In this document: piece after piece, positions 1,724-59,420 of the stretch
Numbering within the stretch: the stretch's first letter is position 1
Layout of the letters: each line of letters starts with the position of its first letter
From: Chloranthus sessilifolius
Lineage: Eukaryota; Streptophyta; Magnoliopsida; Chloranthales; Chloranthaceae
Length of the DNA: 64,000 nucleotides
Assembly (NCBI GenBank): GCA_021018995.1
Contig: CM037587.1
Span: 71,133,604 to 71,197,603, forward strand
Direction: 5' to 3'
Translations under genes and position numbers: made by a program
Notes under the pieces: generated by a model
Databases searched by the model: none
Told to the model about the DNA's origin: nothing
The model's input: only the letters and a program-made list of their open reading frames with translations

Positions 1724-2330
1724 TGTGCGACCATGGATCCTCTCGAACCCATCGCGATGGTGTGCTCGCTATGAATGAAAATGTAGAGTCAAAGGCTCTA
1801 GGGTAGGGGCTTCGGTTATCGATCAGGAAGGGTTTAGGCACCCGTTCAACCTGCATATAGCTGTCTCTATCTATGGCCAAAAATAAAAATAAATGGGCGG
1901 AGCTTCCCCTTGCTCGAAGGCAATACGGTCCTATCAAGCTTTGAGCCAAACCGATATTTTGGCAGCATACCAGCTTGAATCCTTGGACGGAGGAATCACC
2001 AAGAAGGTAGAGGAAGAGAGGGGTGAGCCGAAGCTCACGGGGGCCCTTGTTGCGCCGTGGAAGTCCTTTACTTTGGCGTGCTTTCGATGGCTTAAATGGA
2101 ATGAAAATGGGTTCTAATGCTAGGATTCAATAAAATAGGAAGTGTAGGGTGAGGCCAAAGGCTAGACTTTAGCTAAAGGGAGTGATCTAATGGTAGAAAT
2201 GGAGTGGAATAGGTGATCTAAGCTTGCTGGAATTCTGGAAAATAAATGGCATTTTCTCTCACTAGGGCTCTCTCTCTTAAGCTCTCTAATCTTTCAACCA
2301 AAATTTTCAACCCTTTGGGAAGAGGGGCCT

Positions 2331-2344
2331 CTCTATTTATAGAG
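2331..2344 (-). promoter_or_regulatory. TATA box of the giant's 3' LTR
   Basis: Minus-strand CTCTATAAATAGAG is a strong plant-type TATA box. The same site is in the other LTR at 31646-31659. It lies about 860 bp into the LTR, downstream of the palindromic array, as expected if the array is in U3. Confidence 0.7.
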
Positions 2345-2603
2345 AAGAGGTGGGTTAGGGGCTTACTTAAGATCTAATTGGTTTAGCAATTAGGTAATAC
2401 CCTATCTAAGGTTTTCTAGGTTTTCAAGGTCCTAGGGTTTTGGGAAACTGATTTTAATGGCGGATGATGGGGTGAGACCATAGGTGACTTAAGGGTTGCC
2501 AATAAGCTCAAAGGGGGTGCAACCAACCTCAAGACACCCACCCTAAACAAGGGGAGGGTCAAAGGGTCAAACCAGATGAAGGAATTGATGGGAATGAGTT
2601 TAA

Positions 2604-2812
2604 GGGGCGTATATATTATATACGCCCCGGTTTATGTGATGATCTCTAAAAATTAAGGGAGTTTTGGAAGATGAAGCCCGTGGTGGGTCCCACCTATCTT
2701 TGGGAGTATATATTATATCGCTTGCCCAAATTTAGCCCAAAATGTCGTATATAATATATACGCCTAACCAAAATTGGGCCAGATTTGCCGGGAGTATGTA
2801 ATACATACGCCT
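2604..2812. repeat. Palindrome array 1, in the 3' LTR
   Basis: Four AT-core palindromic sites at about 2604-2628, 2702-2720 (degenerate), 2745-2764 and 2790-2812. The first is a 25-bp palindrome with arms GGGGCGTATATA and TATATACGCCCC. The last two are separated by a spacer containing CCAAAATTGGGCCAGATTTG, which recurs in the other LTR. The unit period is about 45-48 bp. Confidence 0.9.
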
Positions 2813-3198
2813 GAGTAAAAAGGTTGTCATTTTATGTGGGACTTCAATCGGCCATAACGTTTGAACCGTAGCTCTAAATCGGGTGATTTTTGGCTTGTTG
2901 GAAAGCTGGAGAAGTTCTCTTTGCAAAGGTATATGGCTCATCCATGGTGGTGGTCTGTATAAAGTTTTGTAGCTCCTCTCCCATCAACTGCTTAGAAGGG
3001 TTTAAGTTAGGTCTGGGAAGGGAATCTAGGGTTTAGGGGTGATCTCTAAGGGTTAGGGGATGGTTTTAAAGGGTTCAGGGTGATTCCTAAAGGTCTGGGT
3101 AGGTTCCTAAGGGTTCAGGGGCACCATCAGAAGCACCGGGGTACATCTCTCCCGAAGTACAGATTGATCGGGCCTGGGGCCAAATTTGGATGTCTACA

Positions 3199-3213
3199 GA
3201 TGCCCCTCTTTGG
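3199..3213 (-). promoter_or_regulatory. Giant element: polypurine tract
   Basis: The minus strand reads CCAAAGAGGGGCATC directly before the 3' LTR start, as expected for the plus-strand priming purine tract. It fixes the minus orientation of the giant. Confidence 0.8.
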
Positions 3214-5640
3214 TATTCGATCACTAATGATTGGATGCCAAAGACAAGAGACATCCGAAGAGGTCCAAGGCACGTTTGACAGGTCTGCCTGGTTCAACTC
3301 AATTCTCAAACATTCATGGTCATGGTGAGTGTACATAAGCCCTCTCATTTTGGGATATCGTCTGTACCTCAAAGCTAACAGTCCCCAAGCGCATTACGAC
3401 ATTACTAGGCATAACTGCGATGATCACAGAAAGTGTAAGCCCGTTAGCCGGGATATTGTCCACTTCCTGAGGGAAATTATAGATTTGTGATATTTGAGTA
3501 TTAATCTGAACCAGGCAGCTCCATGAAACGGGATGATCGATCTATGCTTCGGAATTGATGCGAAGCGCATAAAGCGAAGGCCTACAAACTTGTGCCCAAT
3601 CCTGTGGGATATTGACAGCTCCACTAGATTGGCCACGGGTGCCCTTACCTAGGTAAGGCTCGGAGTCTTTGGGCGAACCCATCAACCTTGAGGTTATTTT
3701 AGCATGTTTTACCTGAGTGAAGCGAATATTGATGTCACAACACTTCTTGGGAATGCATGCCCATTTTCAGAGTAATTTTTTTTTTATGTTTCCTTTTCTG
3801 AATTTTCTTTTATTTCGAGGCCTCTAAGCAAAGCTCAAGGACCTCTGGCATCTTTATTCTTGCACAACTCTTTAAGTGGATCAAATGTCAGTTGATACGC
3901 TTTAAGAATGCGTGCGCTCTGCTGGGGATGGGTGCACCTTGGGGATGTGCTCGTTCTGGAGGCGAGGTGCTCCTAATTCACATGAACCGGAATGCCTTAA
4001 CTCGAGACAAAGCTAAAAAGGATCGGGCTAGAACCAAACATCCATCGAAAGAGATGGTCAATTCTAGCCTCCATCCCTAATGAAATCACCTCTTACTAAT
4101 TATGCATAGACAGACACCCATCAGGGGTGATAAGCAGCAAATAGGCGCGAACGAAAGCCTCGACCCTAAGGTACAATTTACAAGGACAAACGACCATCCT
4201 ACGGATACCCAGACGCAAGTGCGTACATTCAACAGGGACATCGTGCCTATACAAGGTTTTAAGCCTGTGTAAAAGGAAATAAAAGGGAATGAGCCCTTCG
4301 GTCTGTATGTTTGCACATAGTTTGGTCGGTTGTAATTTCATTTTTGACGATTATCGACAATAGACTTTCGAATGGTTCAAGTCGGGGCACTCTTGGTCAA
4401 CATCAATCCGAAGGTGGATGACTAGAGCGAGTGCATGGAAGGTGGGGTCAACCTGCACTGGATTTTTACTTTATAACAAAAGGTCGTTATTTCCTCTCTT
4501 TTTTCCTTTTTCTTTTTTCTTCTTTCATGTCAGTTCGAGACTCTAAGCATGCTCAAACTACTTTTATTTCTGCACGTATCCTTAGGCGAATCAACTTGCC
4601 ATGTTGATATACCTTAAGGACGTGTGCATTCGGTGATGGGTCCTTGGTTTGCCTGCCGGATCAGGCCTTGACTTCTGCTGGGGAAGATCATGGGCTAGGT
4701 GTATGTTCCTAGGAGTGACCGGTGATGGATAAGTTTATTTGCTTGCCGAACCAGGTGATGACTCCTGAGGATGCGTGGTCTTGGTCTTTAAACAAATTAG
4801 ACCCAATCATCTACTTTGGAAGGTGGGTTCCTAATGACCGGGGATAAACCTGACCAGTATTTTGCCTGCCGGATCAGGCGCGAGGTGTCCCTGCGTAAAA
4901 CAGGGTTCGAGAATTTTTGGGTGAACCCGATCATTCCGAATTGATTTAACACGGTGCTCGGAGTGGCGCAAATGTTCATTGCGACGCTCGTTTGGGAACT
5001 AGTGTCATATATTTTCATTTTTCTTTCTCTTTTTTTTTCTCTTTTTTTTTAATTATTTATTTATATATTATTTTCTTCTCTTTTTTTTTCTTTTTTGTTT
5101 GATTTTGTGGGCGCATTAGGTGGGTGCCTACGGATCTAGATCCATTTTTTTTTATAGCACGGTCCCTTTGGGCCAATTGAAGGGAACTCGAAGGGCCATT
5201 TAGGGATGCGTGCACAAACGCTTGACACGGTATGCGGGCTTCTAAGGGGGACCGGGCCGTGGTCCATAGCATGCAAGGGAGATCCGTCGGGCCTCAAAAT
5301 TGAAAAATGGTGGCGAGTTTAGAAGCGGCCATTTTCTCGCGATATATATATATCGCTGACCAAAATCTGATGAATGGTCGGTATATATATATCCTTTGTC
5401 CAAAAATCTGGCAGTTACAAAACTGCCCAAGCCTGAGCACAAAAGGGGCCCCCCTTTTCAAATTCTATCTTCCTCCCTCCTTCCCTCTTGAGTTCGGGAC
5501 AGCCTGCTAGGGTTTTTGCATTTGATTTGGCTTGAGTTCTATTACCGGGGGTTACGGGTGCCGATCAAGAGTGCTCACTCTTCGTCGATATTTGTTTTTC
5601 TCTTCCATTGAAGGTAATCATTACCCTTCCTTCATTTTTC
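3214..5640 (-). other. Giant element: distal 3' spacer, non-coding
   Basis: No credible gene is seen on either strand. A degenerate direct repeat is visible: the block at about 3790-3930 (TTCTTTTATTTCGAGG, CTCTAAGC, a cysteine-free T-rich run and AAGRMTGCGTGYRCTC) recurs at about 4505-4640, a spacing of roughly 720 bp. Three copies of a TGCCGGATCAGG-like word lie near 4650, 4742 and 4865. Runs of T and CT occur at 5020-5100. The spacer is typical in length for Ogre-type elements. Confidence 0.65.
5339..5395. repeat. Palindrome array 2, upstream of cargo gene 1
   Basis: A palindrome GCGATATATATATATCGC at 5339-5356 is followed by TGACCAAAATCTG and then a second AT-core site CGGTATATATATATCC. 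The linker matches the TGACCAAAATTGG linker of the LTR arrays, so this is a diverged member of the same array. It lies about 0.7 kb before the first exon-like block of cargo gene 1. Confidence 0.7.
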
Positions 5641-6098: not shown

Positions 6099-7717
6099 AT
6101 GTTCGGCGACGAAGGGCATGATCAGCAAGAAGGGTCGGAGATGGCCTATGGTCCCTATGGGGAACAATTCTTCGTGTCTCAGAGCTCTTCCCAGCCTTGG
6201 TATGAAATGCAAGGCGAGGCTACCCGTACCAGCCTCCTCTACTGCCAACACACCCATATGTCCAACTTTGGGATCGCCGGTCAGGTAAACAGATGAGCTC
6301 CCCCCCTTTTTTGCTTTTGTTTTCCTTTGATGTCTTCATTATACCACCTTGCCCCTATCTGACTAATGCCTTCTGTTTGCAGCCCCTACCACACATTATG
6401 TTCCGGGCCGGGGTGGCTAGTTTGACCTCCAGCGTCTCGTGCTTTATCTTCCCCCAGCGGTGAAGGACCTGCTCACCGATGCCGGTTTTGGGGATTTCAT
6501 TTCGTGCCCGTGAGGCCGTCACCTATTTGAAAGCTTCGATAGGCGTTGCCCGGGACCATGACATTTCACATGGTCGTGGCAGAGATGGCCTTTACACCTG
6601 CAGACTGGTCTATGATCATTGGGGTCCGTATTGGACGGGTGCCCGTGGTACCTACCCGTACACCGGATAGAGAGGAGGTGATTCGACTGATAGGGGCCTA
6701 CCCGACCTCTGGGAATATTCGAGGTTCTAAGGTCAAGCTGTCCTGGCTGGTTGATCAGTTTGAGCCTCATGAGTTAGTGGACCAGGGCCAGCCCGACGTG
6801 GCCATTTACCTCGAGCCTGCACGCGCACATATGCTGGCCCGCATTTCTCTGCTATTCCTCCTGGGCAAGACTCTCCTCTCAAACACCAGCGGAGGGCGAG
6901 TCTCATTGTCCCTACTCAGCCTTATGGTGAACTGGGAAACCGTACATCGGTTTGATTGGGGCGGCGCTGGCTTTGCGGTGCTCATGTCCAGCCTAAAGCG
7001 AGCCGTTCTTGGGGAGTCTAGCTCTATTGTGGGTTTCTGGCCTGCGATTGAGGTATTTTATCCTTTGGTTTTAGTTTGTCCAATTTTTCTTTTCTAGCAT
7101 ACCTATTTTTATCTGCTTGCTTTCTCATATTTGGGGTATCTTCATTTCCAATCGGGTCACCCTCTGCTTCAGTCTGAAGTTGCTACGTTCCCCCTCATGA
7201 GTAACTGGCATGTGAGCTGACGTCGGGACATAGGTATGAAGCATTTGGAGTTAGGGCTGCGCTCTCAGTTCGACCTGTTGATCTCAGAGCAGTTATAACC
7301 ATTCCCCCTTTTCTATAAATTTGATAGCTCTTTTGTGCTATGGGTTTTGACCAACTGTATGTATCCCTCCTCTATGTTCTCTTCTTTTTGCAGATCGTCC
7401 TTGACCCCTACATAGGATCTCCCTTCTGGAACCTGGCTTCAGTGGGTCCTTCTCGCCTCTTGCTAGACCGCCACATCATCTTCCTCTACGGGACCTAGAC
7501 TAGGGCCTATTATTTAGGAGAGAGAGTGGTTCATCAGTATCGTCCTCTCTTTGCTGTGCCCCAAGCTCCTCTAGCTGACGTGTTGGCTCCGGAACGCTCT
7601 ATTGATGAGCTTACTTCTCACTTCCTTCACCATGGGGTCCCTATTGATGGCCTTCTTTTACCTGGGGGGTATCAGATGTGGTACGATTCTCTGCCTTATC
7701 ATTTCCTGCTGCCCCGC
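6099..7717 (+). pseudogene. Antisense cargo gene 1, 5' part: plant mobile domain protein
   Basis: This gene runs opposite to its host retroelement. Exon-like blocks lie at 6099-6284, 6383-7052, 7173-7294 and 7394-7717, each bounded by a plausible GT or AG. The second block carries plant mobile domain (PMD, PF10536) hallmarks: the FHMVVAEMAFTPADWSMIIG segment, AHMLARISLLFLLGKTLLS and WGGAGFAVLMSSL. Known PMD proteins are plant-specific, occur in MAIL1/MAIN-like nuclear silencing factors and in many transposons, and have no proven catalytic activity. Block four ends at the CCCGC duplication of the nested element; related sequence resumes at 15822. Decay is visible. It could be transposon-borne PMD rather than a recent host capture. 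Confidence 0.75.
7713..7717. repeat. Target site duplication CCCGC, left copy
   Basis: CCCGC immediately before the LTR that starts at 7718 matches CCCGC at 15822-15826, immediately after the partner LTR. Confidence 0.92.
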
Positions 7718-9137
7718 TGTTATCGATTTCAAGTGTGCTTCCCTTATTGGTTGGTGGTGAAAGTATCAAAAACAGAATGAAACAGGGGATGAATCAGCAC
7801 AAATTGAAAATCCTAGACCTGCAAGATACAGGGTCCTTTGTAGCAAGTTTTGATAAGTAAGAGTTTGTCCCACAGGGAAACGTGATTTAAGGCTCCAAGG
7901 GAGCCGTATCTAGTAGTCCCTCTAGATCTGTCTACAGATTTGGCAGTCCTAAAAGGAGGGGAATTTGAGGTCACTTATTCTAAGTATTCTAATAACTAAA
8001 TTATAGAAAGGATTGAGAGGATGGATGGATTGTGGAAAATAATTATAAAAAGGTGAGAAATATGTTTTTGAGCCAAGATCAGAGGAGTTCTTGTAACTCA
8101 GATTTAGATATGATGTTATAGAAATCCTGTCCAGAGGCTACATTATCACCTCTGAGGAGAAAGGATCCAACCCATCTCTACTGCCATGACTCCACCCTTA
8201 GGGCTATAACCTGTCCACTTAAATGGTCACAGACTATCCCATAGGGGAGCCACTATCCAGGGATGGGTCAGAACATAACTATTAAATCATTGCAGGTACT
8301 ATTTCATCCAGGCTACCAGCTCAGGAATCCATAGGGAACCTCAACCTCTAAAGTTCCATGTGTGGGGCTAAGGCTGGAAAACCATGATAGCCCAGACACA
8401 GAACCAGCAAGCGGTTGAGTACAACCTTCGATCCAGCTGTCCATTACTTGAGAGAGGCTACAATGGTTCAGTCACCAGCCTACAATCTCTATAACCAGAT
8501 CAGATCCGGCATCTGATGGCAGATCTATACAAATATGGGGGAGTCTGCCTCTGTACAATCCCTCACCAGGCTTCTACAAGCTCAGGTGAAAAGAAGAAGG
8601 ATCCATCTTGGATCAGTGGATCAGAATCACCCTAAGGCTATAATCTGTCCACTTAAATGGTCACAGACTATCCCAGAGGTTATCCTCCTCACGGAGCCCA
8701 AGACAAAACAAGATTATCGCTGCTACCACCAGGTTCACTAGGCTACCAGCTCAAGCTCCCATGGGGATTTCAGATCTAATAGGTCCTGTGGCAGGGCTAA
8801 GGCTGGAAGACCATGATAGCCCAGACACACAGGTTACTTGGATCTGAGTGGCCCTTAAAATCAGTACTCCATTGCTTAGGCAATGGAGGATCACAAGGCA
8901 GCAGCCTTGCACAGAGCATCTCACAAATTAACAGCAATCCTACAAAGTATAAATCCTATTACAAAACTTCCATTAATCTAACTCAAATGCATATACAAAG
9001 TCATAGCCAGCAATTGTTGGACTATGGAGAGAAGAAAAGAAAAAGAAAAAGAAAAACTACTTACTACCAAAAAGAAAGAGAAAAGAAAAGCGATCTGAGA
9101 TAGGTTCCCAGATACCTAAACCTAAGCTAGGCCTGGG

Positions 9138-9145
9138 TATATATA
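9138..9145 (-). promoter_or_regulatory. TATA box in the gag-only element's 3' LTR
   Basis: TATATATA in the context GCTATATATACCCAGG on the minus strand, conserved in the partner LTR at 14763-14770. The CGCGAG word cluster lies upstream of it in element orientation. Confidence 0.6.
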
Positions 9146-9319
9146 GCAGTGGGGTGGCAGCGCATTAGGGTTAGGAAACCCTAATTTTAACGATGCCACG
9201 TGGCCTTCTACTAATCCTTGGATGCCTCAGGGCTGGTGCACGGAGATTTGAGCGTGGGAATGCGTGCCCTAATCATTGGAAGTTTCCAGAATGCCCTCAG
9301 TTGTAGAGATGGAAGTTTA

Positions 9320-10000
9320 GGTTCAGAGCCTCACTAGGTAGCTGTAGTTTCCTAGACATCTCGCGTGGTAGCTCATTGCTCTTCGCTAGGATGATTTGAC
9401 ACTGAAGTTTCAGCCGTCGCGAGGTTGCCTTGGTTTGCTCTTCAGGCAGTCGCGTGGTAGAGAGTTGAGCTCTCACTGAGTTGCAGTTCACGAGATTGAG
9501 TAGAAAACATAGTCTCAAGCGTCGCGAGGTTACAATTCAACATGGGTAGATTAGTCTTATTGGCGGCACGAGAATGTGAGCTCTTTTCTTTACTTGGACT
9601 TCGCGAGTTACCTCGCGAGGTTCTTTTGAGTTCTGACTGCGCGAGGTTCTTTGTCTCACTCAATCTTCGTGAGCTGGGCTTTGCCTTCGCCAGGATTCTT
9701 TCTTTCTTGAATGGCGCGTGAACTGCGCAAGGCGTTCTTCTTCTGAGAATTGTACCCATGGCATCGACGGCATTGCGAGAAATCTTCTGAAGCTCTCTCT
9801 CCTCAGCTGTCTTAAGCGAACTTCGTGAGATTGAGAGAGGTCTTCTTTGAACTGCGCGACACTAAGCGCTGTGTTCTACCCTTGATCTTTGTGAGAGCTG
9901 CGCGGAGTTGAGTTTTTGAAGTTCCTCAGTCATTCATCTGCGCAAGAGGTTGCTTGTAAAGCCTTGGGAAGCTCAGCTGATCTGCGCGAGGCTTCAAGGT
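9320..10000 (-). repeat. CGCGAG-word cluster in LTR U3, copy 1
   Basis: More than a dozen short words of the form TCGCGAGG, TTCGCGAG or CTGCGCGAG are dispersed at 15-60-bp spacing. Many CG steps have decayed to TG or CA compared with the partner LTR at 15030-15640, as expected from methylated cytosine loss. Confidence 0.75.
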
Positions 10001-10176
10001 GCATTCTTACTGAGGGGCATCTGGTGCCAAAGCAGGCTCCATAACAGGATTCTTGGCCTTATTTCACTGCTGATTATTTCCTGAACAAAACACTTAAGAC
10101 GAGTTTATTAAGTGGCTAAGGGTCTAATCAAAGGTTAAGTTAAGGGGTGAATAGTGGTACTTTTCTGGTCTTAACA

Positions 10177-11781
10177 CACCCCCAAACCTAATCTTTGCTA
10201 GACCCTTAGCAAAGCTACATTAAATCTACTCTAAAAATTAAATGCCACTTTCGTAGGGAGCACGGATACATTTAGCATATGTACCAAGCCTTTTAAACCC
10301 CTAGGTGATCCCTAGTGGAGGAGTGAAGTCTCCTGAGGGTTTTCAGTGAAGGCACCCCCAAACTTCTCCAATGAAATAGTTAACTAAAGTGCAATGTCTT
10401 CCAATGAGCAGTTAAGGAATCAGATTTAGTCTACTCATGAATCAGCATAAAAGAAGTTTAATTCATTGGTTGCACAGGAACTTAGACAGCATAATTCGCA
10501 TGTTAGCACAGCATTTTCAAATAATTTGTGATCACAGAAAACTGCACAAATGCATGTCAGCACTGAGCTTATCCTTATATCAGAAAATTAGGTTAAGGTC
10601 ATACATAATGCATTCAAGTTCAGACCCAAAAGAAAGCTTTACAGGGCATACTCTCATCAAGGTTTGTTGAGGGGTTCAGTTTCTCACAGGCTCAAGAGCA
10701 GTTACACCCCCCAACTAGGTTTGTAAGCATGAGCATAGGCAGAGTTCTTAGGTGCTAGCATCATTGTCCGTTTCTCAGCATAGATTGGATAATTCCTTAT
10801 ATTCACATGACAGCTCACTAAATCTTTGGATCACAAGGGCTTTTAACTGGGTTGAAATGTGGCTTATGGAGTATGGTTAAAAAGAATGGAAGGTTTGAAA
10901 AGGGTTCAAAATTGAGTGCAGGAGGTGGTTCATGACTTCACCTTCTCGAATTCAGCTCCCTTCATCTTCTTTGAGATTTTCAGATTTGAAGTGATCAGTT
11001 TCTCTTCTTGATTTTGATTTTCCAATGAAGGTTCCTCTTGACTTCTCTCTTATTCCTCTTCATTATTATTTTTTTTTATTTCTTTTTGCTGGAGTTTTCT
11101 TCTTTTTTTTTATTATTTTGTTTTTGCTTCTCAGAAATGCCACCATGTCCTCAGTTACCATTCTACTAGAATAGATGCTGCTTCTCCATTCACCTAATGC
11201 TGACCATAGCTAGTCCATCTTCAACTCTTTCTCCTTTACCTTCTGAATTCTCAGAGTGAGGGTAGGTTGAATTAGGTTCATAGGTTCAGGTTCAAGTACT
11301 CAGGTGTATTTTGAAGAAATTTAGGATTTAAAGCTCAAAGGGGTATGTACAAGGGCAGTTGCTTTAGGATTGATCTTTTTAGGCTCAAACTGTCCAAGAG
11401 AAGGCCTTGATCCTATCCTAGCTCTCATGAGTACTGTCAGTTGTTTCAACTTGGAGTTACCTAACTTCTAGTGAGCACAGAGACTCAGCCAGTCCTTAGA
11501 ACTAGAAGAAATGCCTTAGTTACTCCTCAAAAGAAAAATTTTGTAGGCCCAATTCTCACTGGTTATGGTCATCCTTTGAAATTTTAAGTATGTCCTCACC
11601 TTTTTCTCTCTCTACTGATTCACTAAGTGCAGATACACGTGTGTTTCCTTGGTGAAATTATTATAAAAATGTGGAATATTAGAAGTCTATAGTGTTCAAT
11701 GTTTGCATAAATTTTAAACTTCTTAATTTTAAGATTCTTAAGTGGACAGAGGTCCATTTCCATATTGCTTAGATGGGTCTG
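10177..11781 (-). other. Gag-only element: non-coding interior and purine tract
   Basis: Between gag and the 3' LTR no domain is recognisable. The minus strand has a G-rich tract (AGGTTTGGGGGTG) at 10177-10190 beside the LTR, a good polypurine tract. T-rich runs occur at 11060-11130. This is where pol would lie in an autonomous relative. Confidence 0.75.
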
Positions 11782-13060
11782 CTAGTGGTGCTGGAAGGTA
11801 GACCTTGGGGCATGCCCTTGATTGAACTGCTGCTGTGGCCTTTGTGGTAAAGCCCACATCTGCTGGGGCTGCATGTAGTTATCTTGCTTCCACCTCAGAT
11901 TTGGGTGGTCTCTCCATTGGTAACCAGTATTTTGGTGCTGGTATCCATATGGCTGCCTATTGTAGCCCCCAGATTGTTGCTGGCCATAAGACTGAGCAGC
12001 AGCAGCATGTTCCAACATTAATTCCATAAATTGCCCTGCAGATGGACATTCCTCCACTGTGTGCTGTGGGGACTGGCATATGAGATATGCCTCCGCCACA
12101 TGAGCAGCCCTTCTGGGTTGCATCACAGTCAACAATTTATCAAACTTCATAGAGAGGTTTGCCATCTGCAGCCATAGGTCATCGTTCCCAGACACATCAT
12201 AAATTTTTCCTTTGGATCCAGCAGCAGACCCCACCTTTGACTCAGATTCCTGATTAGTTCCTGCCAGGGATGGCTTTTGAAAAGCATTCTCACTAATCAC
12301 CTCAAACAATTCTAGCCTTCTTGTGCATGTAGGATCCACCACAGGAGGCATCGACCATATCTCTATTTTTCTCATCAATCCCATTGTAGAAGCTTTGTAC
12401 AAGCTGCCACTCAGGGATCTTGTGGTGGGGGCATTGTTTGAGCATCTCTTTAAACCTATCCCAGGACTGGTTAAAATCTTCAGTTGGGGATTGAAAAAAC
12501 GCAAGAATCTCTTTCCTCAACTGGCTAGTTTTGGTCTCAGGGAAGAACTTGGTTAAGAATCTGGTCTGCAGGTCTTTCCATGAAGCAATGCTGTTGTTGG
12601 GAAGAGTGGCTAACCAGGTACTGGCCCTATCCTTCAGAGAGAAGGGAAAGAGTCTGAGCCTAGTAGCCTCAGGTCCCAAACTAGTGATATTAAAAGTGGT
12701 GCACAAGACCAAGAACTGGTCAATATGCTTGTAAGGGTCTTCTTTGCTAAGCCCATGGAAAGCTGGCAACATCTGGATGATTGAAGTTTTTATCTCATAA
12801 TTCCCCTGAACATCAGGGAATTGAATGCTATAGGGGGAGTTGTAGTCATCCGGAGCATTCAACTCCTTGAGGGTTCTGGGGTGTTCTTCACCCATGGTTG
12901 CTGATGCAGATTTTCCTGGGGGCTCTCCTGTGGTGTGCCTGTCTCTTCTAAGTCTCCTCCCCCTTTCTATCTCAGGGTTTAGAGACTCTAAAGTAGGGCT
13001 AAGGGATCTCCTCCCTAGCATACAAGCACACCCACAGCAAGGAAAGCTTCTTACAGGCAC
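11782..13060 (-). pseudogene. Gag-only element: gag
   Basis: Minus-strand gag of the retrotransposon gag family (PF03732). The core lies at about 12390-12840 and includes the FHGLSKEDPYKHIDQFL segment, LRLFPFSLKDRASTWL and FLTKFFPETKTSQLRKEI, typical for Athila/Tat Gag. The C-terminal part (about 11785-12000) is rich in Q, Y and G with repeated GYQ and QQQ runs. No CCHC knuckle was identified. It is broken by one or a few changes. Its product would form the particle shell; with no pol in the element, particle maturation would need a partner element. Confidence 0.85.
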
Positions 13061-13344
13061 ATTACAAACAAATTTATCTAACTATTTTACAGCTATTAAA
13101 GAATACATTTAAACTATCCTAGATATTGCTGGAAAAATTATTTAAAAAGGAAGATAGACATAGCTTTAGAGTCAGAGAGTTTGCAAACAGAGGTAGCTAT
13201 GCTCCAATTGCATTCCAACTATCCTTCACTGCTGCTATCCAGATCTGCAAGAAATATTCACAATTATGTCAGCAGTATCAATTATTCACATGTATAAAAA
13301 ATACTAAGAATACAAAAACTAAGGGTCTACTATTAGATCATCTT
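13061..13344 (-). other. Gag-only element: leader
   Basis: AT-rich leader between the primer site and gag. Nothing else is recognised. Confidence 0.6.
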
Positions 13345-13362: not shown

Positions 13363-13368
13363 AAAACT

Positions 13369-21624: not shown

Positions 21625-22300
21625 GATCTCAACCGCCTCTCTCTCGGTTAGGAATCAAAGTAGAACATTATTGTGAGACCGTCTGTACAGGAGATCGCCG
21701 CAGATGACGTAGTTCGTTGCCAATCATTGGATGGTGGGTCTGTCTACCTTCGATGTTCCTTCTGGGATAGTTCAAGTCTCGAGGAAATTCTTGATGTCTA
21801 AGAACCAGGGTGGTTCATCATCTACCTCTGTAGGTCCCTCGATTAGGTGATAGAAAGCCGGCTCGTTCCTCTGTTCTATCATAATCGGCTTCATCACAAC
21901 TCCGTATGGAATCTCAACCATAGAGGCCAGGGTAGCCAGGGCGTCAGCAAACCGATTCCTTGCTCGTGGTACATAGGAGAAGGTGACCTCTTCAAAGCAG
22001 ACAATCAGATCCTCCAGATGCTCATGGTACGGGATCAGTTTCTCATCCTTGGTCTTCCAATCTCCGTTGGTCTGTCATATAATTAACTGTGAATCTCCAA
22101 AGACCCTGAGGTGAGTTATATTCAGATCAAGAGCTGCCTGTAAACCAGCTGTACAGGCCTCATATTCGGCCATATTCTTGGTGCATGGGAAGTTATATTT
22201 GATTGAGATGGGTACATGTGATCCTCTTGGCGAGATAAGAATGGCGCCAACTCCTTGGCCTTCAATATGCGATGCTCCATCAAAGTGCATTACCCAGGGC
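21625..22300 (-). pseudogene. Giant element: second (archaeal-type) RNase H
   Basis: At about 22075-22300 on the minus strand lies WVMHFDGASHIEGQGVGAIL, followed by NMAEYEACTAGLQAALDL and LRVFGDSQLII. These are the D, E and D elements of an archaeal/plant-type RNase H, distinct from the retroviral-type one next to RT. A tail toward 21625 links to the integrase zinc region. This second RNase H is diagnostic of the Tat clade. Confidence 0.9.
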
Positions 22301-23831
22301 TCCTTTGTTTCCTCAGTATCCTCGTCAGTAATGAACAGAATATCCTCATCGGGGAATTCAGTCCTTAGAGGCTCATAGTCCGGCAGAGGGTTCTCAGCAA
22401 GATGATCAGCGAGTGCCTGCCCCTTAATCGACTTCTGGGTGACATAGGTAATGTCAAATTCGAATAGGAGTAGTTGCCATTGTGCAGTTCGACTAGTGAG
22501 AGCAGGTTTCTCGAATAGGTACTTTAACGGATCCATCCGTGCTAGAAGTAGGACGGCTTGGGATAACAGGTAGTGTCGAAGTCTTTGAGTATCCCAAACG
22601 AGTGTCATGCATGCTTTTTCCAGATGAGAGTAGCGCGTCTCATAGTCAGTGAACTTCTTGCTTAGGTAATAGATGGCCTGCTCTCTTCTTCCTATCTCAT
22701 CATGCTGTCCTAACAGACAGCCCATGGAAAACTCTATCGTGGACAGGTACATTATCAGGGGTCTATCAAGTACAGGTGGTACCAATACCGGAGGATTTAG
22801 GAGGTAACCTTTAATCTTATTAAATGCAGCTTGGCAGTCATCATTCCACTCAACTGGTGAGTCCTTTCTCAATAGCTTGAAGATTGGTGCACATATCGGA
22901 GTTAACTGTGCAATGAACCGACTGATGTACTGGATTCTGCCTAAGAAGCCACTGACTTCCTTCTCTGTAGATGGTGATGGAATTTTCGTGATGGCCTTGA
23001 TCTTGGTCGGATCGACCTCAATCCCTCTCCTACTGACAATAAAGCACAATAGTTTTTTGGACATAGCACCGAATGCGCACTTCTGGGGATTCAATCGTAA
23101 CTTGTACTTTCTCAACCTTTCGAACAACTTCTAAAGGTTTACCAGGTGGTCACTTTGCTCTAGTGATTTAGCTATCATGTCGTCTACATACACTTCAATC
23201 TCTCTGTGCATCATGTCATGAAATAGTGCAGCTATAGCTCTCTGGTACGTTGCACCGGCATTCTTCAGCCCAAATGGCATGACTCGATAGCAAAAGGTTC
23301 CCCAGGGGGTAATGAACGCTGTCTTCTCGCGATCAACCTCTGCCATTTTAATCTAATTGTAACCCGAGAACCCGTCCATAAATGATAGCATTCCGTGCTT
23401 AGCAGTGTTATCGACCAAGATATCGATGTGGGGTAATGAAAAGTCATCCTTAGGGCTCGCCTTGTTGAGGTTTCGGAAATCAATGCACATTCGAACCTTT
23501 CCATCCTTCTTCGGTACGGGGACGATAAGGCCAGCCACTGGGGGTACTTGGATACCATGAGGAAACCCGAATCATACTCCTTAATGACCTCATCCTTCAC
23601 CTTCAACATCCACTTTGGTCGGAGACGTCTCAGCTTCTGTTTAACCGGCTTGCAATCAGGGTAGAGTGGCAACTCATGCTCAACCAGATCGGTATCCAAA
23701 CCAGACATGTCTTCATACGACCATGCGAAGACGTCTTGGTATGACCGAAGGAAGTCTATCATACCTTTCCTCTCCGCAGGGGACAGCGATGTTCTGATTT
23801 TGGTGATTCTAGGAGCCTCTCTGGTGCCCAA
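22301..23831 (-). pseudogene. Giant element: reverse transcriptase and RNase H
   Basis: The RT palm and fingers lie at about 23131-23600, with VPKKDGKVRMCIDFRNLNKA, MPFGLKNAGATYQRA and the active-site motif VYVDDMIAKS. Thumb and connection are at about 22800-23127. The retroviral-type RNase H is at about 22378-22780 (AIYYLSKKFTDYETRYSHLE, then LLFEFDITYV). It is broken by a few changes. This polymerase copies element RNA into DNA in cytoplasmic particles. Confidence 0.92.
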
Positions 23832-24254
23832 ATTAATATCCTCCGTCTCTTCGACGATCGGGGTAGGGCCATGCTCAAAATTGGCAAATTGTTTGAGGAG
23901 CTCATTGGGGAGCTCATCGATTTGACCTTCCTATCTAGACTCGCGACTCCTACCTCTTCTTGTATTTCTACAGGAAAGGGGTCGGCTTCACGTGGGACGG
24001 GTATCACGACATCAATTTTGATTTTATTAGGAATTTTAAAGGACAATATTTTTTGAATTGGTATTTTTTCTATTTTTATGGCTTTTTGCATTTTTTTGGA
24101 GGGCAGCCCCTGGCGAGGTGGATCTCTATATATACAAGGCAGAGTGGTCCAGAGGCTAACCTCACTTTTTACAGGTTGTTTTTTTTTGGAGAGTCGGTGC
24201 CATTTTCACGGTATTTGGCGGCTCCCAGGAGTTGGGGCAAAGATGCCCAGTTAC
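23832..24254 (-). other. Giant element: protease-RT junction, AT-rich
   Basis: No conserved domain is visible. The middle (about 24000-24190) is T/A-rich and unlike the flanking coding parts. Ogre elements are known to carry a spliced intron between protease and RT, and the position and composition fit that; this is inference only. Confidence 0.5.
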
Positions 24255-24788
24255 TTACCTGTGACGCTTGGCCTTTACCCTTTCTGTTGGAACGGCATCA
24301 GTAGGCTCTTGCAGTTCCTCCCTCAACATATTTACAGAGGGATCCTCTGGGACCCTGTCCTCCATGGTTAGGATGGGCCCAGAGTGGCTGGTGCTGGAGT
24401 GATGGGTGGACCGGGGGACTTCTTCCTCAAATAAGGAAAGGGTGGCTAAGTCCATCTCAAAGTCTGGGGGAATGATGTAGGGATTGGTGGGGTGGATTGG
24501 AGTAGGCTTATGTGGGGTTATCCTCCTCTCCCCATTCAGATCAATTTTTGCTACCCCGGCACTCACAAAGGTTTCACGGATGTGGGGTCGGGCGGGAGGC
24601 TCTTCTTCCAGGTTGATTCCCCTGGCCCTGGCGACTGTTGCGGCCCTTATCTTCTCTTTGGCCTCTCTGACTTCTTCATCGGGCCTATAGCCTAGGCCAA
24701 ATTTGGTTTGCCGCCCCTTGGCCCTGACGGGGTCTCTTCTTCCTTGAATCGGTGCGGGCCCAACCCCTTTCCTTTCTGGTGGCCCCAT
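24255..24788 (-). pseudogene. Giant element: protease-RT linker with G-patch-like start
   Basis: The minus strand continues from the protease with a glycine- and arginine-rich start, then KFGLGYRPDEEVREAKEKI and a charged linker. Tat-type elements often carry this KGLG/GLGY-type patch after the protease. It may bind nucleic acid; function is unproven. Confidence 0.6.
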
Positions 24789-25594
24789 TTGTGGAGCATG
24801 AACATAGCTGCATCCATTCCTCCCCCAATTTTGTCAGGAGGTTTTTCAGTTAGCCCGAGTGTAACGGCCGAGAAGTCATACTCGAATCGGTGGAGATAGG
24901 CATCATCTGTTGTGTGCGGTATGTTTAGCACTTTTGGATTTTCAATGTGTAGAGCACTCTGCTCCCTGTCTTCTCTGCTCTCACCTAAAATGGTGATGAT
25001 CTGTCCCTCTGAAATAAATCGGAGCTTTTGGTGAAGAGTCGATGGTATTGCTCCGAGCTTATGTATCCATGGCTGGCCCAACAGTAGATTGAACGTAGAC
25101 TTAATGTCCATCACCTGAAAGGGGGTGGTGAAGGTTTTTGGCCCGAGGAACAAGTCGAGGCCTACTTCTCCTATGATTTCTCTTTTGGTGTTGTCGAATC
25201 CCCTGGCGCTTGATATGGATGGTCGGAAGGTGTCGGGGTTCGCACCAATTTTGATTGCCGTCCTTAGAGGGCATGCGTTCAGTGCCGACCCGTTGTCTAT
25301 TAAGACCAACGGCACCACCAGGTTTCCTACTTCCACTTTTATATTCAGGGGTTTAGAGTGGTCATTCCCCTCGATCTGTAGGTCCGCATCCGTGAAAGAG
25401 ATGGCATTTGGGGCCAACACTTGCCCTATTATTTCTCCTACTTCATCTGGAGTTACGTGTGTGGAGACGTGTGCGTCCTTGAGTGCTCCCATTAAGGCTT
25501 GGAAGTGGAGCGGGGACGTGATTAACAAATCCCACATAGTAATATGCGCGGATGTTCTCTTGAGCTGTGTCTCCAATATGTGTTCTCTGGCCAT
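24692..25594 (-). pseudogene. Giant element: retropepsin-type protease
   Basis: The minus-strand frame contains an aspartic protease core with VPLVLIDNGSALNACPL (active-site D-x-GS form), then FLGPKTFTTPFQVMDIKSTF and LLGQPWIHKLGAIPSTLHQK, the typical LGRPWIH-type flap of Tat proteases. Its end carries KWGHQKGKGLGPH, a G-patch-like stretch overlapping the linker. It would cut Gag-Pol during particle maturation. Confidence 0.9.
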
Positions 25595-25803
25595 TTTTTC
25601 AAAGGGATTTCCTGCGGCCTATTCTTTATTCTTCTCTTCTCCTCTGATGGCCCCTGATGCCTTCGACTGTGCAGAAATCTGGCCTGACCGGTAACAAATT
25701 CAACAACCTCCTCCTGGTTGCAACCAACATTCATGTCCGTCTGTTCATAGCTTAAAGGCACCTGATGCGGGTCATAGGTAGGTTTCGGGATGAGGAAAGG
25801 AGT
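25595..25803 (-). other. Giant element: protease N-terminal linker
   Basis: Short minus-strand coding remnant between the proline-rich region and protease. No domain is recognised. Confidence 0.5.
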
Positions 25804-26547
25804 TTATCGTAATTCTGGGGAGGATGGGGTTGGACACACCAGTTTCTCGGGTCCAACCAGATTGACTCCGGTAGGGGGTAGAATGGTAGTGGCGGGGATT
25901 GGCGAGGTTGGATTTGTGGGTGCGGAGGGGGCTTGTACGGGTATTACCTGGGCTTGGTAAGACCAGTGGTGATTGGGAGCGGGTGATAAGGGGATTGGGT
26001 GAGGGGTTGCTTGCTTGGGTGGCGGTGGAGTTGGATTGGGACCAAAATAATAAAGGGATGGCGGGAGTGTGACTGGGATGGAGGGATGAGGAGACGGCTG
26101 AGGTGCGGGTGGAGCGGGGTGATAGGGATATGAAGGGTTTGTATAGGGGGTGGCATGGCGGGGTGATGATGGGTTTGTGGATGAAATGGGGTAGATTGGG
26201 GATGATGGAGTTGTGCATGGAGTGGGGTGAATTGGGGATGGTGGAGTAGTGTATTGGGTGGAGATATTTGGGGGTGTGTATGGGGTAGGATAATATGGGG
26301 ATGGCGGAGTTATGTATGGTATGGGGTGATTCGGGTATGACGGGGAGGTGTATGGGGTAAATTGGGCGTGGGGTGGATATGTGTATGATTGCGGCGGGGC
26401 TATGCCCGTTTGGATTTGATAGGTGGGAGCAGGAGTAGAAATATATTGCCCTAAGTCTAAGGGCTCCTCTTGGTATGCCGGCATGGGGAAATAATCAGCC
26501 AAATACAATGGCTCGATAACCCCAATGAATGGTCCTCCTTCATTCAT
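25804..26547 (-). pseudogene. Giant element: Pro/Tyr/Thr-rich region between Gag and protease
   Basis: About 248 residues on the minus strand, dominated by P, Y, T and S in words such as YTPPNIS, TPPSPIHPTP and PYTNPSYPYHP. It is a fast-evolving disordered linker encoded by degenerate 20-40-bp repeats (GGGGATGGYGGAGT-like words on the plus strand). It carries no catalytic motif. Confidence 0.75.
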
Positions 26548-27691
26548 CCTGGGGAGTGAAAACTCCTCCTGATTACTGATATAATCTGAGGGGTCAAACT
26601 CTTCTTCCTCCTCCTCTATCCAATGGATGTTAGGCCTGGGGCCTCCTGGGTGTGGTGGCAGAGGAGCTTGATGGATGTTCTGGTTCTGCCCTTGAGAAAG
26701 CGGCGGGAGAATAATTTTTCCTGCCTCTATTAAATCTTGGATCGCGTGCTTCAGGGGGAAGCATCGGTACGTAGGGCGACCCGGTCCCTGGTGGAAATTG
26801 CAATGTAGATTTGGGTCATAGTTTCTTGGGATGGGATGGGGTGGTGGGCGAGGCTAGAGCAGATTGACCAGCCCTTTCTGTAGCAATACTGGCAGTATGA
26901 CACTTAAAGATTGCCCCAATGGCGTGAACACTCGTTCAAATCATGCTTTCATCTGCTCCTGGGTAAACGGGGCTCTTGGTCCGTTGTTTGGCCTTGGTGC
27001 TTGCTCGAAATAGCCTGGGGGTGGTTGTGTGACTGAGTACATGTCGGTGGCATTGGTATTGGCCTGGGGGTAAACAATGTTCTGTACCTCTGTCCCTGGT
27101 CTTCTTTCAATTCTTGGTTCGACAGCTTTTCGAACCCCGGTGGCCCCGCTGGCCACGTTTCTCCCTAGCCTGCCTTCTCTAATGGCATCTTCGCAACGGT
27201 TGGCATTTCTGACCAAATCAGCAAAACTAGACTGCTGCTGATATACTAAAAAATCTGCGATGACCGGGAGGGCTCCCTTGGTTATCAATTCAATCTGTTC
27301 ATCATCGGGAATCCGGTGAGTTACCTCAGCGGCCAATGCCCCCCACCTTCCCAAGTAAGCACTGAAAGCTTCATCATGTCTTTGCTTTAAACGGGCCAAA
27401 TCTGACTTCCAAGGATGTGAACCATCTTAGTGTCGGGCACGTTAGACTCTTTTGGAACACTTTGATGAGGAGTCGTTCATCTCCGCCGTACTGGCACATG
27501 TCCTCGCAGTAAGATTTTAAGTGGCCAATGGGGTTGCCAGTGCCATTATACTTATCGAATGATGGCATCTTGAATTTTTGTGGTAGGGGGACATCAGAGA
27601 ACAGACATAAGTCTAAAAAGTCTGTTGAATGCAGTTCTACTCCTCCCATCTTCATCAGCTGCTTCTGTATTTTGTCTATTTGTTCTTTCAA
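26548..27691 (-). pseudogene. Giant element: Gag core
   Basis: The minus-strand capsid-like region runs from about 27691 (KFKMPSFDKYNGTGNPIGHL, CEDMCQYGGDERLLIKVF) through RHDEAFSAYLGRWGALAAEV and SFADLVRNANRCEDAIREG. The C-terminal Tat Gag signature FHQGPGRPTYRCFPLKHAIQ lies near 26760-26815. These elements lack a classical CCHC knuckle; this C..H..C..LK motif takes its place. An acidic EEEEEEF patch follows. It is broken by a few changes. Confidence 0.88.
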
Positions 27692-29352
27692 CTGTTCTGG
27701 TTCTTTTGAGGCTGTAGCGAGGACTGCTTCCCCCTGATTTTGTTTGACCCTAGGTGTGATGATGGTGGGCCCGAGAGGGTTGAAGCTGGCAACTCCTCCA
27801 CTGTTGCGGATCTCATCCTCCTAGTACTGTTGGTCATGGTATATGTGAGGGGCGAGGTCTGCTATTTGGACTTGGGTGGTGAGGGGTTGGATGACCTGGT
27901 GGGGCCATAAGGTTTGTAGGGGATGGGAAGAGATGAATGGATGGGTGGTTGGTGGATGAATGATGTGCTGAGCCGGGTGCATATTCTGGGGGTGATGGGG
28001 ATGTGGTTGATGTGGCGGGATGTTGTGGGTTTGAGGAATGGGATGGATTGGATTTTCTGTTGGAGGCGGGATGGGGGCATAAGGGGTATAGGTGAATGAA
28101 GGGTATCGGTGGGGGGGTACGGGGTTTGTGAACGGGCCTTGATGAGCGTGGGTGGATGGGCCTTGGATTTGATGGGCTTGGGCTTGATGATGTTGGAAGG
28201 CTTGGGTTGATGGGCCTTGGGCCTGGGTGTGGGGGTTAGTATGACTTTGGGCCAATGGGCCTTGTTGGGTTTGGGCTAATGAGCCATGAGGGAGTTGGGT
28301 TTAGGTCCATGGGCCTTGGGCTTGGGCTTGGGCTGGATAGGTTTGGGTCCAAGGGCCCTAGGGGGCTTGGGCCTGGGTCTGATGGGTTTGGGTTTGGGCC
28401 CATGGGCTTTGATGGTTTTGGGCCTGGACCTGGGCTTGATGGGCTTGGGTCCATGGGCCTTGAGGATTTTGAGCCTGGGTCTGATGGGCTTGGGCCTATG
28501 GGTTTTGAGGGTCTTGGGCTTGGGCCTAGGTCTGATGGGCTTGGGCCCATGGGTTTTGAGGGTTTTGGGCTTGGGTCTGGGCTTGGGTCCATGGGCTTTG
28601 AGGATTTTGGGCCTGGGTCTGATGGGCTTTGGCCCATGGGCTTTGAGGGTTTTAGGCCTGGGTATGGGTCCATGGGCTTTGAGGATTTCGAGCCTGGGCC
28701 TAGGTCTGATGGGCTTGGGCCCATGGCTCTAGAGGTGTTTGGGCTTAGGCCCATGGATTTGTGTGGATTTGGGCCTGGAATTGAGGTGGGGGATTTTGGG
28801 AGGTATGGGCGATGGGTGGTTCGGCATGGTTAGGAGGGAATGGGGTATGGAGGTTTTGGAGATTTGGATGCAGGGTTTGAGATGTAGGGTTAGAAGGCTG
28901 TATGCACATCATTCTCATGTCCTCCATTGAGGGCATGGATTCAGGTGTGAGAGTGGAGGGTGATGGCTCACTTAAGGATGGAGGGGGTTGGGAGAAATTG
29001 GGCATGACCCGAGTATGGGGGGTATGGGTGATTGTGCTTGGGGGGTATGGATGTATGGCTATGGAAGATGGTGGGTTATTGGTCATATCCTGGGAAAAGT
29101 TGGCCATGACCTGGGTTAATGGGGAGGTATGTTGGGATGTGGATGGGCCATGTGGTGGGAATGGTATGTGAGATGAGGTGGATGGGATGTGGGATGTAGG
29201 GGGCATGGATGATGAGATGGATGGAACGTGGGAAGTAAGCGGGGGATGGGGCTTCCTATGGGAATGGGAATGGGTCTTCTCCTACATGGGAATGGGAATG
29301 GGATGGGGATGACGGTGGGGATGTATCGGCTCTTGACATGATCCACTGACAA
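27692..29352 (-). pseudogene. Giant element: proline-rich region upstream of Gag
   Basis: A run of minus-strand open segments rich in P, S, H and T. The centre (28236-28754) is built from tandem units of SKPMGPSPSDPGPK type. On the plus strand the same units are GGGCTTGGGTCCATGGGC-like, strongly G-rich. Ogre elements carry an extra ORF ahead of gag, and this region holds that position, but no conserved domain is visible. It is probably a disordered N-terminal extension or the decayed ORF1. Confidence 0.6.
28245..28760 (-). repeat. G-rich minisatellite encoding Pro-Ser-Lys repeats
   Basis: Degenerate units of about 27-57 bp built on GGGCTTGGGCC / ATGGGCTTTGAGG / TTTTGGGCCTGGGTCTGATG (plus strand). 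Strand asymmetry is extreme, and the plus strand is dense in GGG runs. Open frames exist on both strands because the unit lacks stops; only the minus reading fits the element. Confidence 0.88.
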
Positions 29353-29980: not shown

Positions 29981-30098
29981 AGGCGTATATATTATATACG
30001 CCTGGCTTAAATCTGGGGGTTTTGGCCGGGCGTATATATTATATACGCCTGAGTAAATATGGAGATTTTTTGCTGGGCATATATATTATATACGCCTA
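29981..30098. repeat. Palindrome array 4, in the leader
   Basis: Three units at 29981-30002, 30028-30050 and 30075-30098, spaced 47 bp, each with GGCGTATATA-type arms (the third has one arm altered). Linkers are TGGCTTAAATCTGGGG- and TGAGTAAATATGGAG-like, matching the other arrays. Confidence 0.92.
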
Positions 30099-30926
30099 GA
30101 AAAATAGTTCTGTCGATGAAGTTTTGACAGTAAACAGCAAGCCCGAATGTGGGTCTTTGAACTGGTTTCCTGGGAGGGATGCTCCTGGGGACTACTGTGT
30201 ATGTTATCGGGTCCCTCCTTTCCGTTTCCTAGGGATACACGGCTGAATTTTAGGTTGTCTACGCTCTCACCAATGTGGGTTTTACGACTTTATCGGAATT
30301 GGCAACCCAACCGATATACCTCTGGCACAAGCACCTTCTCAGGTACTAGAAGGGGTGGTTCTTTTCAGGATCATCACCACTAGGGCTGCCGCCTTACTGG
30401 GAATAGGGTGAAATATATCTATGCCTAAACCCCCCGAAAACTACCCAAAAACGCAAAAATAAATTCAATAATGTCCCCACACTGTTGGTTCACTTTTAAT
30501 TACAAATTTTTATAGGGGAGTGAAATTAAGTCCAAAATCAGGTCGGGGATGACAAGTCTCGTGCCGCCTCAACGGGCCGGCGTTCAATGGTGAGATATGA
30601 TGACTGAAATGAAAAGTGCACGTAGGCCTGCCAAACGGCTAAGGCTCATAAATGACTGAAATTTAAATGATGTAAAAGTAAATGCGAGTGGGCCAGCCAA
30701 ACAGCTAAGGTGGCTTAAATGACAAGAATCGGAAAAATAGGAATTTAAAGGCGCACGTAGGCCCGCCAATTGGCTAAGGCACTTAAAGGACTGAATCGTA
30801 GGAGTGAGTACGTTAGTAAAAACAACAAAAATATAGAAAAAATAGCAAAAAAAAAAAAAAAAAAAAACAGCAATGGTTAGTAACAAAAAAAGAAAGGCCA
30901 ACAAGAGGAAAAGCGCTACGGTGATA
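30099..30926 (-). other. Giant element: distal leader with degenerate tandem repeats
   Basis: Between 30600 and 30800 three units of about 65-80 bp share CGCACGTAGGCCYGCCAA, YGGCTAAGG and AAATGACTGAA. A 29-base A run is at about 30838-30866. No gene is supported on either strand. Confidence 0.7.
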
Positions 30927-30944
30927 TCCCCAGCGGAGTCGCCA
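30927..30944 (-). promoter_or_regulatory. Giant element: primer binding site
   Basis: The minus strand reads TGGCGACTCCGCTGGGGA two bases from the 5' LTR edge. This is the Arg-tRNA-type primer site reported for Ogre-like elements and supports the assignment independently of the coding domains. Confidence 0.88.
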
Positions 30945-31645
30945 TCTGTGCGACCATGGATCCTCTCAAACCCGTCGAGATGGTGCACTCACTACGAATG
31001 AAAATGTAGAGTCGCCACCCGGAGCTTTTGGTGACCCGGGAAGCCTTTAAATCAATATTTTGAGCATCGAAGTGCTAAATATGACTCTGATTTACCGGTC
31101 TTTGCCAAAGGATCTAGGATAGGGGCTTCGGTTATCGATCGGGAAGGGTTTAGGCACCCGATCAACCCGCATATAGCGGTCTCTATCTATGGCCAAAAAT
31201 AAAAATAAATGGGCGGAGCTTCCCCTTGCCCGAAGGCAATACGGTCCTATCAAGCTTTGAGCCAAACCGAAATTTCGGCGGCGTAACGGCTTGAATCCTT
31301 GGACGGAGGAATCATCAAGAAGGTAGAGGAAGAGAGGGGTGAGCCAGAGCTCACGGGCCCTTGTTGCGCCGTGGAAGTCCTTCGCTTTGGCGTGCTTCCG
31401 ATGGCTTAAACGGTATGGAAATGGGTTCTAATGCTAGGATTCAATAAAATAGGAGGTGTAGGGTGAGGCCAAAGGCTAGACTTTAGCTAAAGGGAGTGAT
31501 CTAATGGTGGAAATGGATTGAAAAAGATGAACTAAGCTTGCTGGAATTCTGGAAAATAAATGGCATTTTCTCTCACTAGGGTTCTCTCTTAAGAGCTCTC
31601 TAATCTTTCACCAAAAAATCCAACCCTTTGGGAAGAGGGGGGCCT

Positions 31646-31659
31646 CTCTATTTATAGAG
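31646..31659 (-). promoter_or_regulatory. TATA box of the giant's 5' LTR
   Basis: CTCTATAAATAGAG on the minus strand, identical to 2331-2344 in the partner LTR. This is the likely core promoter for the genomic RNA. Confidence 0.72.
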
Positions 31660-31934
31660 AAGAGATGGGTTAGGGGCTTACTTAAGAGCTAATTGGTTTA
31701 GCAATTAGGTAATCCCCTATCTAAGGTTTTCTAGGTTTTCAAGGTCCTAGGGTTTTGGGAAACTGATTTTAATGGCGGATGATGGGGTGAGACCATGGGT
31801 GACTTAAGGGTTGCCAATAAGCTCAAAGGGGGTGCAACCAACCTCAAGACACCTACCCTAAAAAAAGGGGAGGGTCAAAGGGTCAAACCAGATGAAGAAA
31901 TTTCGAGCAACTGATGACAGTTACTATAGCTAAG

Positions 31935-32152
31935 CTGGGCGTATAGATTATATACGCCCAGTTTATGCACAGTGATCTCTACAAAAATTAAGGGAGTTTT
32001 GAGAAGATGAAGCCCATGGTGGGTCCCACCTATACTGGGCGTATATATTATATACACCCGGCCAAATTTTGGCCAAAAATGCCAGGCGTATATAATATAT
32101 ACGCCTGACCAAAATTGGGCCAGATTTGCCGGGCGTATGTAACACATACGCC
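31935..32152. repeat. Palindrome array 5, in the 5' LTR
   Basis: Sites at 31935-31961 (27-bp near-perfect palindrome with CTGGGCGTATA arms), about 32036-32060, 32084-32106 and 32131-32152. The last three are spaced 47-48 bp with CCAAATTTTGGCC / CCAAAATTGGGCC linkers that are themselves short palindromes. Confidence 0.92.
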
Positions 32153-32544: not shown

Positions 32545-32549
32545 GATCG

Positions 32550-59418: not shown

Positions 59419-59420
59419 GT

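Follow-up and report, generated by a model that had tools for sequence, protein, structure and literature searches.

Tandem short motifs that recur in the non-coding regions of a plant transposon are described for the VANDAL elements of Arabidopsis, which encode an accessory protein, VANC, that binds these motifs (PMC5735166, PMC10398659; here and below, as described in the available portions of the papers cited). Antisense plant mobile domain (PMD) genes and tandem repeats are already known in retrotransposons of the Tat lineage: 57% of Ogre elements carry PMD open reading frames (ORFs; Neumann et al. 2019, PMC6317226) and two PMD clades are encoded by Gypsy elements only (Ikeda et al. 2017), so that such a cargo is nothing unusual in the lineage. 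In Grande elements, a promoter upstream of the antisense gene (gene23) drives its transcription (PMC7264820), regulatory roles have been suggested for the antisense proteins of Retand elements (Vicient 2025, PMC11963269), and PMDs captured by MULE elements have been speculated to serve anti-silencing (Ikeda et al. 2017). The window analyzed here, 64,000 nucleotides of Chloranthus sessilifolius (GenBank assembly GCA_021018995.1, contig CM037587.1, positions 71,133,604 to 71,197,603 of the forward strand), holds a minus-strand retroelement (1724-32539) that by its domains and termini is of the Ogre type of the Ty3/gypsy Tat lineage, and in which arrays of a short palindrome recur in both long terminal repeats (LTRs), in the leader and ahead of two antisense PMD genes, designated A and B. 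All results concern this single copy of one element, inside one 64-kb window.

The VANDAL/VANC system is the closest working analogy: both systems combine tandem short motifs in non-coding regions with an accessory protein gene of their own. VANC carries DUF1985; gene B has a weak match to DUF1985, below the cut-off, besides its PMD. VANDAL is a DNA transposon, whereas the present element is an LTR retrotransposon with antisense PMD genes, and the VANC21 motif YAGTATTAY is a 9-mer, in contrast to a 21-bp palindrome here (PMC5735166). With the Ogre/Tat elements that have PMD genes as extra ORFs the Chloranthus element shares large size, a second RNase H, a putatively tRNA-Arg-like primer site and the extra ORFs themselves, but a palindromic module common to LTR, leader and antisense genes is not mentioned in the accessible text on those elements (PMC6317226). 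Its antisense genes lie between pol and the 3' LTR, as in Retand (PMC11963269) and Grande (PMC7264820), whose antisense genes are of the TRP28 type rather than PMD genes; Retand also has tandem repeats, described for the region between pol and the 3' LTR, and palindromes are named in the available part of that account just in the title of one reference (PMC11963269). A literature search, with subscription literature mostly outside its reach, found no shared palindromic module in LTR elements: the palindromes in the accessible parts of PMC11963269, PMC10794571, PMC3212565, PMC12477314 and PMC9033089 are not described as forming such arrays in an LTR element, and among the titles listed for the letters of the motif none is on a plant transposable element.

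The core unit, GGCGTATATA-W-TATATACGCC with its variants, is a palindrome of 21 bp whose central A or T just marks the orientation, both orientations being found. The whole window was scanned with GGCGTATATA-N-TATATACGCC, allowing up to 7 mismatches; one strand is enough for such a scan because the 21-mer is its own reverse complement. There are 20 matches, comprising 15 core units, two duplicates shifted by 2 bp, and three others (33067, 36589 and 44295), which are the only matches outside the arrays and have 7 mismatches each. The 15 core units (seven with no mismatch, four with one, three with three, and one with six) sit in four arrays: one in each LTR, one in the leader, and one before gene A (Table 1). 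The remaining 41 kb of the window has no match with 6 mismatches or fewer, and an LTR element nested within gene B (7718-15821) has none even at 7, so the palindrome is confined to the host element within the window and was rejected as a general repeat of the region. The exact 21-mer has no match among viral contigs or bacterial and archaeal genome contigs, collections that exclude plants. The arrays of gene A and the leader were also considered as stray pieces of the LTR, an origin that was rejected because the LTR match ends approximately at the array edges. A fifth array, before gene B (5339-5395), is diverged: it has one perfect 18-bp palindrome with another core (GCGATATATATATATCGC), plus a second TATA run lacking palindromic symmetry, and is joined to the family by the linker TGACCAAAAT, its tie to the LTR units. 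A preliminary description from the sequence had placed five palindrome arrays at these positions; all five were recovered, the one before gene B belonging to the family by its linker and not by its core, and the regular spacing that had been claimed is mostly 47 bp, except that the first unit of the LTR arrays lies about 100 bp from the next.

Palindromes of this strength are far more frequent than chance predicts. The interval 1724-32700, nested element included, has 11 strong palindromes, whereas 40 first-order Markov sequences averaged 0.475 and never exceeded 2, and ten of the 11 fall in the arrays (one in the 3' LTR array, one before gene B, three before gene A, two in the leader and three in the 5' LTR array), the remaining one (14490, in the nested element) being unrelated. 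When 500 local Markov sequences were generated for each array, the means were 0.004-0.034, and the real count was reached by two of the 500 for the 3' LTR array, by five for the gene B array and by none for the other three. Abundance of strong palindromes is not unique to the element, as 32701-64000 has 12 (mean 0.4, maximum 4 in 20 Markov sequences), which consist of two TA runs and ten others unrelated in sequence. Both LTR arrays have a perfect GTGGGTCCCAC dyad between units 1 and 2, in the 5' LTR 24 bp away from the unit 2 centre; we take this dyad to resemble a TCP site. The two occurrences (0.02 expected) are LTR copies, hence one independent case. A half TCP-type site, GGNCCCAC, was not used: 13 matches were found (5.45 expected; 2 of 100 shuffles reach 13), of which only five are in the LTR arrays or the leader.

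The arrays are non-coding and near predicted promoters or gene starts. Both LTR arrays are upstream of a minus-strand TATA box, CTATAAATAG (31656 and 2341), 265-496 bp away, their near edges lying 265-282 bp from it (282 bp in the 5' LTR), and each is located between this sense box and a candidate antisense TATAAA, which in the 5' LTR (32299) is 147 bp from the array and has a pyrimidine-rich stretch starting 15 bp from its first base. The corresponding candidate box of the 3' LTR would aim at the antisense genes. Of the internal arrays, that of gene A ends 184 bp ahead of the ATG, that of gene B is about 704 bp ahead of the ATG, and 701 bp separate that of the leader from the outer edge of the first minus-strand ORF downstream of it, an ORF whose start codon is uncertain. 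Location of the LTR arrays upstream of the TATA box and of arrays ahead of both antisense genes, as first described, is thus borne out. Under random placement, the probability that the three internal arrays would fall one in each 704-bp upstream window, the windows having been set post hoc, is 0.000265, while the probability that all three would be non-coding is 0.058; the internal region is about 39% non-coding by a rough map, and therefore little weight attaches to non-coding placement by itself. Plant elements such as Tnt1 and Tto1 have U3 enhancer repeats, short and in tandem, upstream of the TATA box of the LTR; these lie in the LTR, whereas here the module is also present in the leader and ahead of the antisense genes.

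The linkers between the units (approximately TGGCYAAAA...TTTTGGCYG) are imperfect dyads themselves. With the left-LTR copies excluded, the summed dyad score of seven linkers is 17, compared to a best score of -18 in 300 letter shuffles, and five of the seven are individually below 0.05 for symmetry, so that an array is a chain of alternating dyads. Between arrays (left LTR and diverged gene B array excluded), core identity is 93% (40 pairs, minimum 81%), a value inflated because units were selected by core likeness, whereas linker identity is 56% (16 pairs; shuffled linkers, 38%). The two arms of the cores agree in 123 of 143 cells (13 offsets in 11 units, left LTR excluded), compared to 117 expected (p 0.005), and offset 3 is a clear covarying case (11/11, p 0.02). 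Since insertion, the LTRs have come to differ at 7 core sites (of 83 aligned), at 17 further sites of the arrays (of 131) and at 86 of the 1257 sites in the rest of the LTR; thus, the cores have diverged as fast as the rest and this copy shows no constraint, none of the seven core differences being compensated. Cores are alike between arrays but diverge at the general rate between the LTRs, and therefore core conservation predates this insertion: constraint or homogenization acted in the active lineage and not in the present copy. The CpG observed/expected ratio of the whole element is 0.60; linkers have 0.54, other non-coding sequence 0.67, and cores 2.15, partly because of how the motif is defined. 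Changes in a single arm at 17084, 30076 and 32038 are all CG to CA, which fits methylation decay, and so they are uninformative with respect to pairing.

Symmetric cores, regular repetition, placement on the promoter side and a core that is better kept than its surroundings fit the sites of a dimeric protein, and on these grounds the arrays are read, with a probability of roughly 0.55, as clustered cis-regulatory sites for a sequence-specific protein, acting as a symmetric dimer, that would serve the transcription units of the element. Such a protein may bind the palindromic cores, or its dimers may stack at intervals of about 47 bp, roughly 4.5 helical turns, and one shared factor, encoded either by the element (a PMD protein) or by the host, would then control the sense promoter of the LTR, its likely antisense promoter and both antisense PMD genes. 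A PMD protein in this role might set up a VANC-like self-regulating or anti-silencing circuit, although to name it as the binder of the arrays is speculative. It is quite unlikely that the element is a retrotransposon with its own regulon, in which a PMD protein from the antisense genes would bind the arrays of the LTRs and the leader as well as those at its own promoters, and so coordinate or unsilence the whole element as a retroelement counterpart of VANC with a different domain and motif. In Arabidopsis, a promoter motif has been tied to genes that require the PMD proteins MAIN and MAIL1, with binding not proven in the accessible text (PMC7156037).

Several observations weigh against sites for a dimeric protein. 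The leader array sits within the predicted transcribed leader, about 1.56 kb past the sense TATA box in the downstream direction and beside no known start site; a portable regulatory cassette for each transcription unit, as proposed in the preliminary description, is otherwise a fair inference. The gene B array is diverged, selection of units by their cores favors the identity of cores over linkers, and two of the seven linkers are not symmetric alone (17% and 23% of shuffles reach them). Maintenance of the palindrome itself, also proposed earlier, has moderate support from the agreement of arms and from offset 3; the change at offset 3 (seen in unit 4 of the LTR and unit 2 of gene A) may be a single event copied between arrays, offsets 11-13 combined fall short of significance (p 0.11), and the core differences between the LTRs are, as noted, uncompensated.

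Neutral or selfish tandem repeats, in which a short palindromic unit was amplified by slippage and spread to other non-coding parts of the element by template switching or conversion in reverse transcription with no regulatory role, are an alternative that, unlikely as it is, has the best chance of those considered. Approximately half of recently active Retand elements have tandem arrays between pol and the 3' LTR, with function and origin unexplained (PMC11963269); in Silene latifolia, according to the available text, two otherwise differing satellites have a palindrome alone in common, so palindromes can spread within repeats; and the linkers common to the Chloranthus arrays are homologous, while their non-coding placement is the weak evidence given above. 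Simple amplification accounts less well for arrays that are also outside the region between pol and the 3' LTR, for cores far better kept than linkers, for agreement of arms beyond chance, and for the location of every array ahead of a predicted promoter or gene start. It is highly improbable that the TATATA centres are TATA boxes of core promoters, bidirectional because they are palindromic: TATAWAW occurs on one or both strands in most units, and the second TATA run of gene B is about 75 bp before a pyrimidine-rich stretch, but a separate box, CTATAAATAG, is present in the LTRs at a distance of 265-282 bp from the array, and TATA-binding protein needs no GGCG/CGCC arms, linker dyads or 47-bp repetition. 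The least probable alternative is that of hairpins (cruciforms, small-RNA precursors, or dimerization or packaging signals of the genomic RNA), for although several units have perfect arms of 10-14 bp and all arrays are within the predicted genomic RNA, a one-base centre leaves no proper loop, a length of 21-29 bp would make a short substrate for Dicer, the arrays are spread over several distant places, and the CG to CA changes say nothing of pairing. No sign of cruciform or small-RNA function, both raised in the preliminary description, emerged from the sequence.

Both antisense genes match the plant mobile domain PF10536 above its cut-off of 34.9 bits (Table 1). Gene A, the start codon of which was picked by eye, has a stop in frame at 17575 and further stops past 18294, attributable to decay or introns. 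Gene B, of which the start codon and intron-like gaps were likewise judged by eye, is interrupted by the nested element; its match to DUF1985 (E 0.0013, 19.1 bits, likewise in 6543-7094) is under the cut-off of 35.1, and DUF287 is absent among its Pfam matches. The best BLASTP E value between the two PMD domains is 0.35, indicating that they are not recent copies, and recent gene duplication was thereby ruled out as the source of the shared arrays. The sequence of the gene B domain has no match in the PDB, and a structure model of the gene A domain, made without an alignment, was too poor to use (mean predicted local distance difference test score, pLDDT, 36.3).

Table 1. Features of the Ogre-type element and its palindrome arrays, in window coordinates (TSD, target-site duplication; a dot means no strand assigned).
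Feature	Coordinates	Strand	Details
5' LTR	30947..32539	-	1593 bp; TSD ACAAC directly after
3' LTR	1724..3198	-	1475 bp; TSD ACAAC at 1719-1723
Primer binding site TGGCGACTCCGCTGGGGA	30927..30944	-	2 bp from LTR
Polypurine tract AAAGAGGGGCATC	3199..3211	-	adjoins 3' LTR
gag-pol region, broken pieces	20706..29281	-	
Sense TATA box CTATAAATAG, 5' LTR	31648..31657	-	same box at 2333-2342 in 3' LTR
Candidate antisense TATAAA of LTR	32299..32304	+	counterpart at 2958 in 3' LTR; putative function
5' LTR array	31938..32152	.	units 31938, 32038, 32085, 32132; centre steps 100/47/47
3' LTR array	2606..2811	.	units 2606, 2703, 2744, 2791, more decayed; centre steps 97/41/47
Leader array	29982..30096	.	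units 29982, 30029, 30076; centre steps 47/47
Gene A array	17039..17199	.	units 17039, 17084, 17132, 17179; centre steps 45/48/47
Gene B array, diverged	5339..5395	.	palindrome GCGATATATATATATCGC, linker TGACCAAAATCTG, second TATA run
Antisense gene A	17383..18741	+	PF10536 E 3.9e-9, 36.6 bits, in 17578-18294
Antisense gene B, first part	6099..7717	+	PF10536 E 9.9e-13, 48.4 bits, in 6543-7094
Nested LTR element	7718..15821	-	interrupts gene B; LTR identity 92%; TSD CCCGC; minus-strand gag

The class of the element is indicated by its domains. An ORF at 22078-23130 on the minus strand matches RT_RNaseH (E 9.8e-21) and, downstream, RVT_3 (E 2.9e-7), and thus possesses a second RNase H-like domain besides that of the reverse transcriptase, as is characteristic of the Ogre clade; rve (E 1.6e-14) and Integrase_H2C2 (E 1.2e-6) follow at 21124-21654 on the same strand, integrase downstream of RNase H being the Ty3/gypsy order. 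The scanned gag, protease and reverse transcriptase pieces have no Pfam match and were assigned by eye only. Behind the protease-like part there is, by eye, G-patch-like sequence (24258-24833 and 24695-25618, minus strand), for which Pfam gave no match; a G-patch after the protease is an Ogre-type trait. The primer site TGGCGACTCCGCTGGGGA, with a presumed likeness to tRNA-Arg, and the polypurine tract AAAGAGGGGCATC are both at the expected positions, and the p-distance between the LTRs is 0.075. The RNase H protein had one pattern match and no relative among viral contigs. These domains, together with the PMD genes, the LTRs and the TSD, agree with the original view of a minus-strand Tat/Ogre element with antisense genes. 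A 61-bp tandem repeat at 19120-19470, between gene A and the end of pol, is unrelated to the palindromes.

The element is inserted in another minus-strand gypsy element (1-1723 and 32540-34016), splitting the gag/zinc knuckle on the right (32823-33455) from the protease, reverse transcriptase and RNase H on the left (1398- and 222-728). Elsewhere in the window, a 5.7-kb stretch is repeated with 91% identity 11.8 kb apart (45417-51135 and 57238-62905), with a third partial copy at 62900-64000, and gypsy protease and RNase H sequences are found in this region (49158-49820 and 52370-52774); the repeats may be a product of tandem or unequal recombination.

In the portions available, the literature proposes regulatory or anti-silencing roles for the antisense genes of Tat elements and names no target in the element. 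The conserved palindrome, present in the LTRs and the leader and ahead of both antisense genes, offers a concrete candidate for such a target and makes the role of these genes testable. The host PMD proteins MAIN and MAIL1 function in transposon silencing (Ikeda et al. 2017, PMC7156037), and therefore the answer bears on the origin of that pathway.

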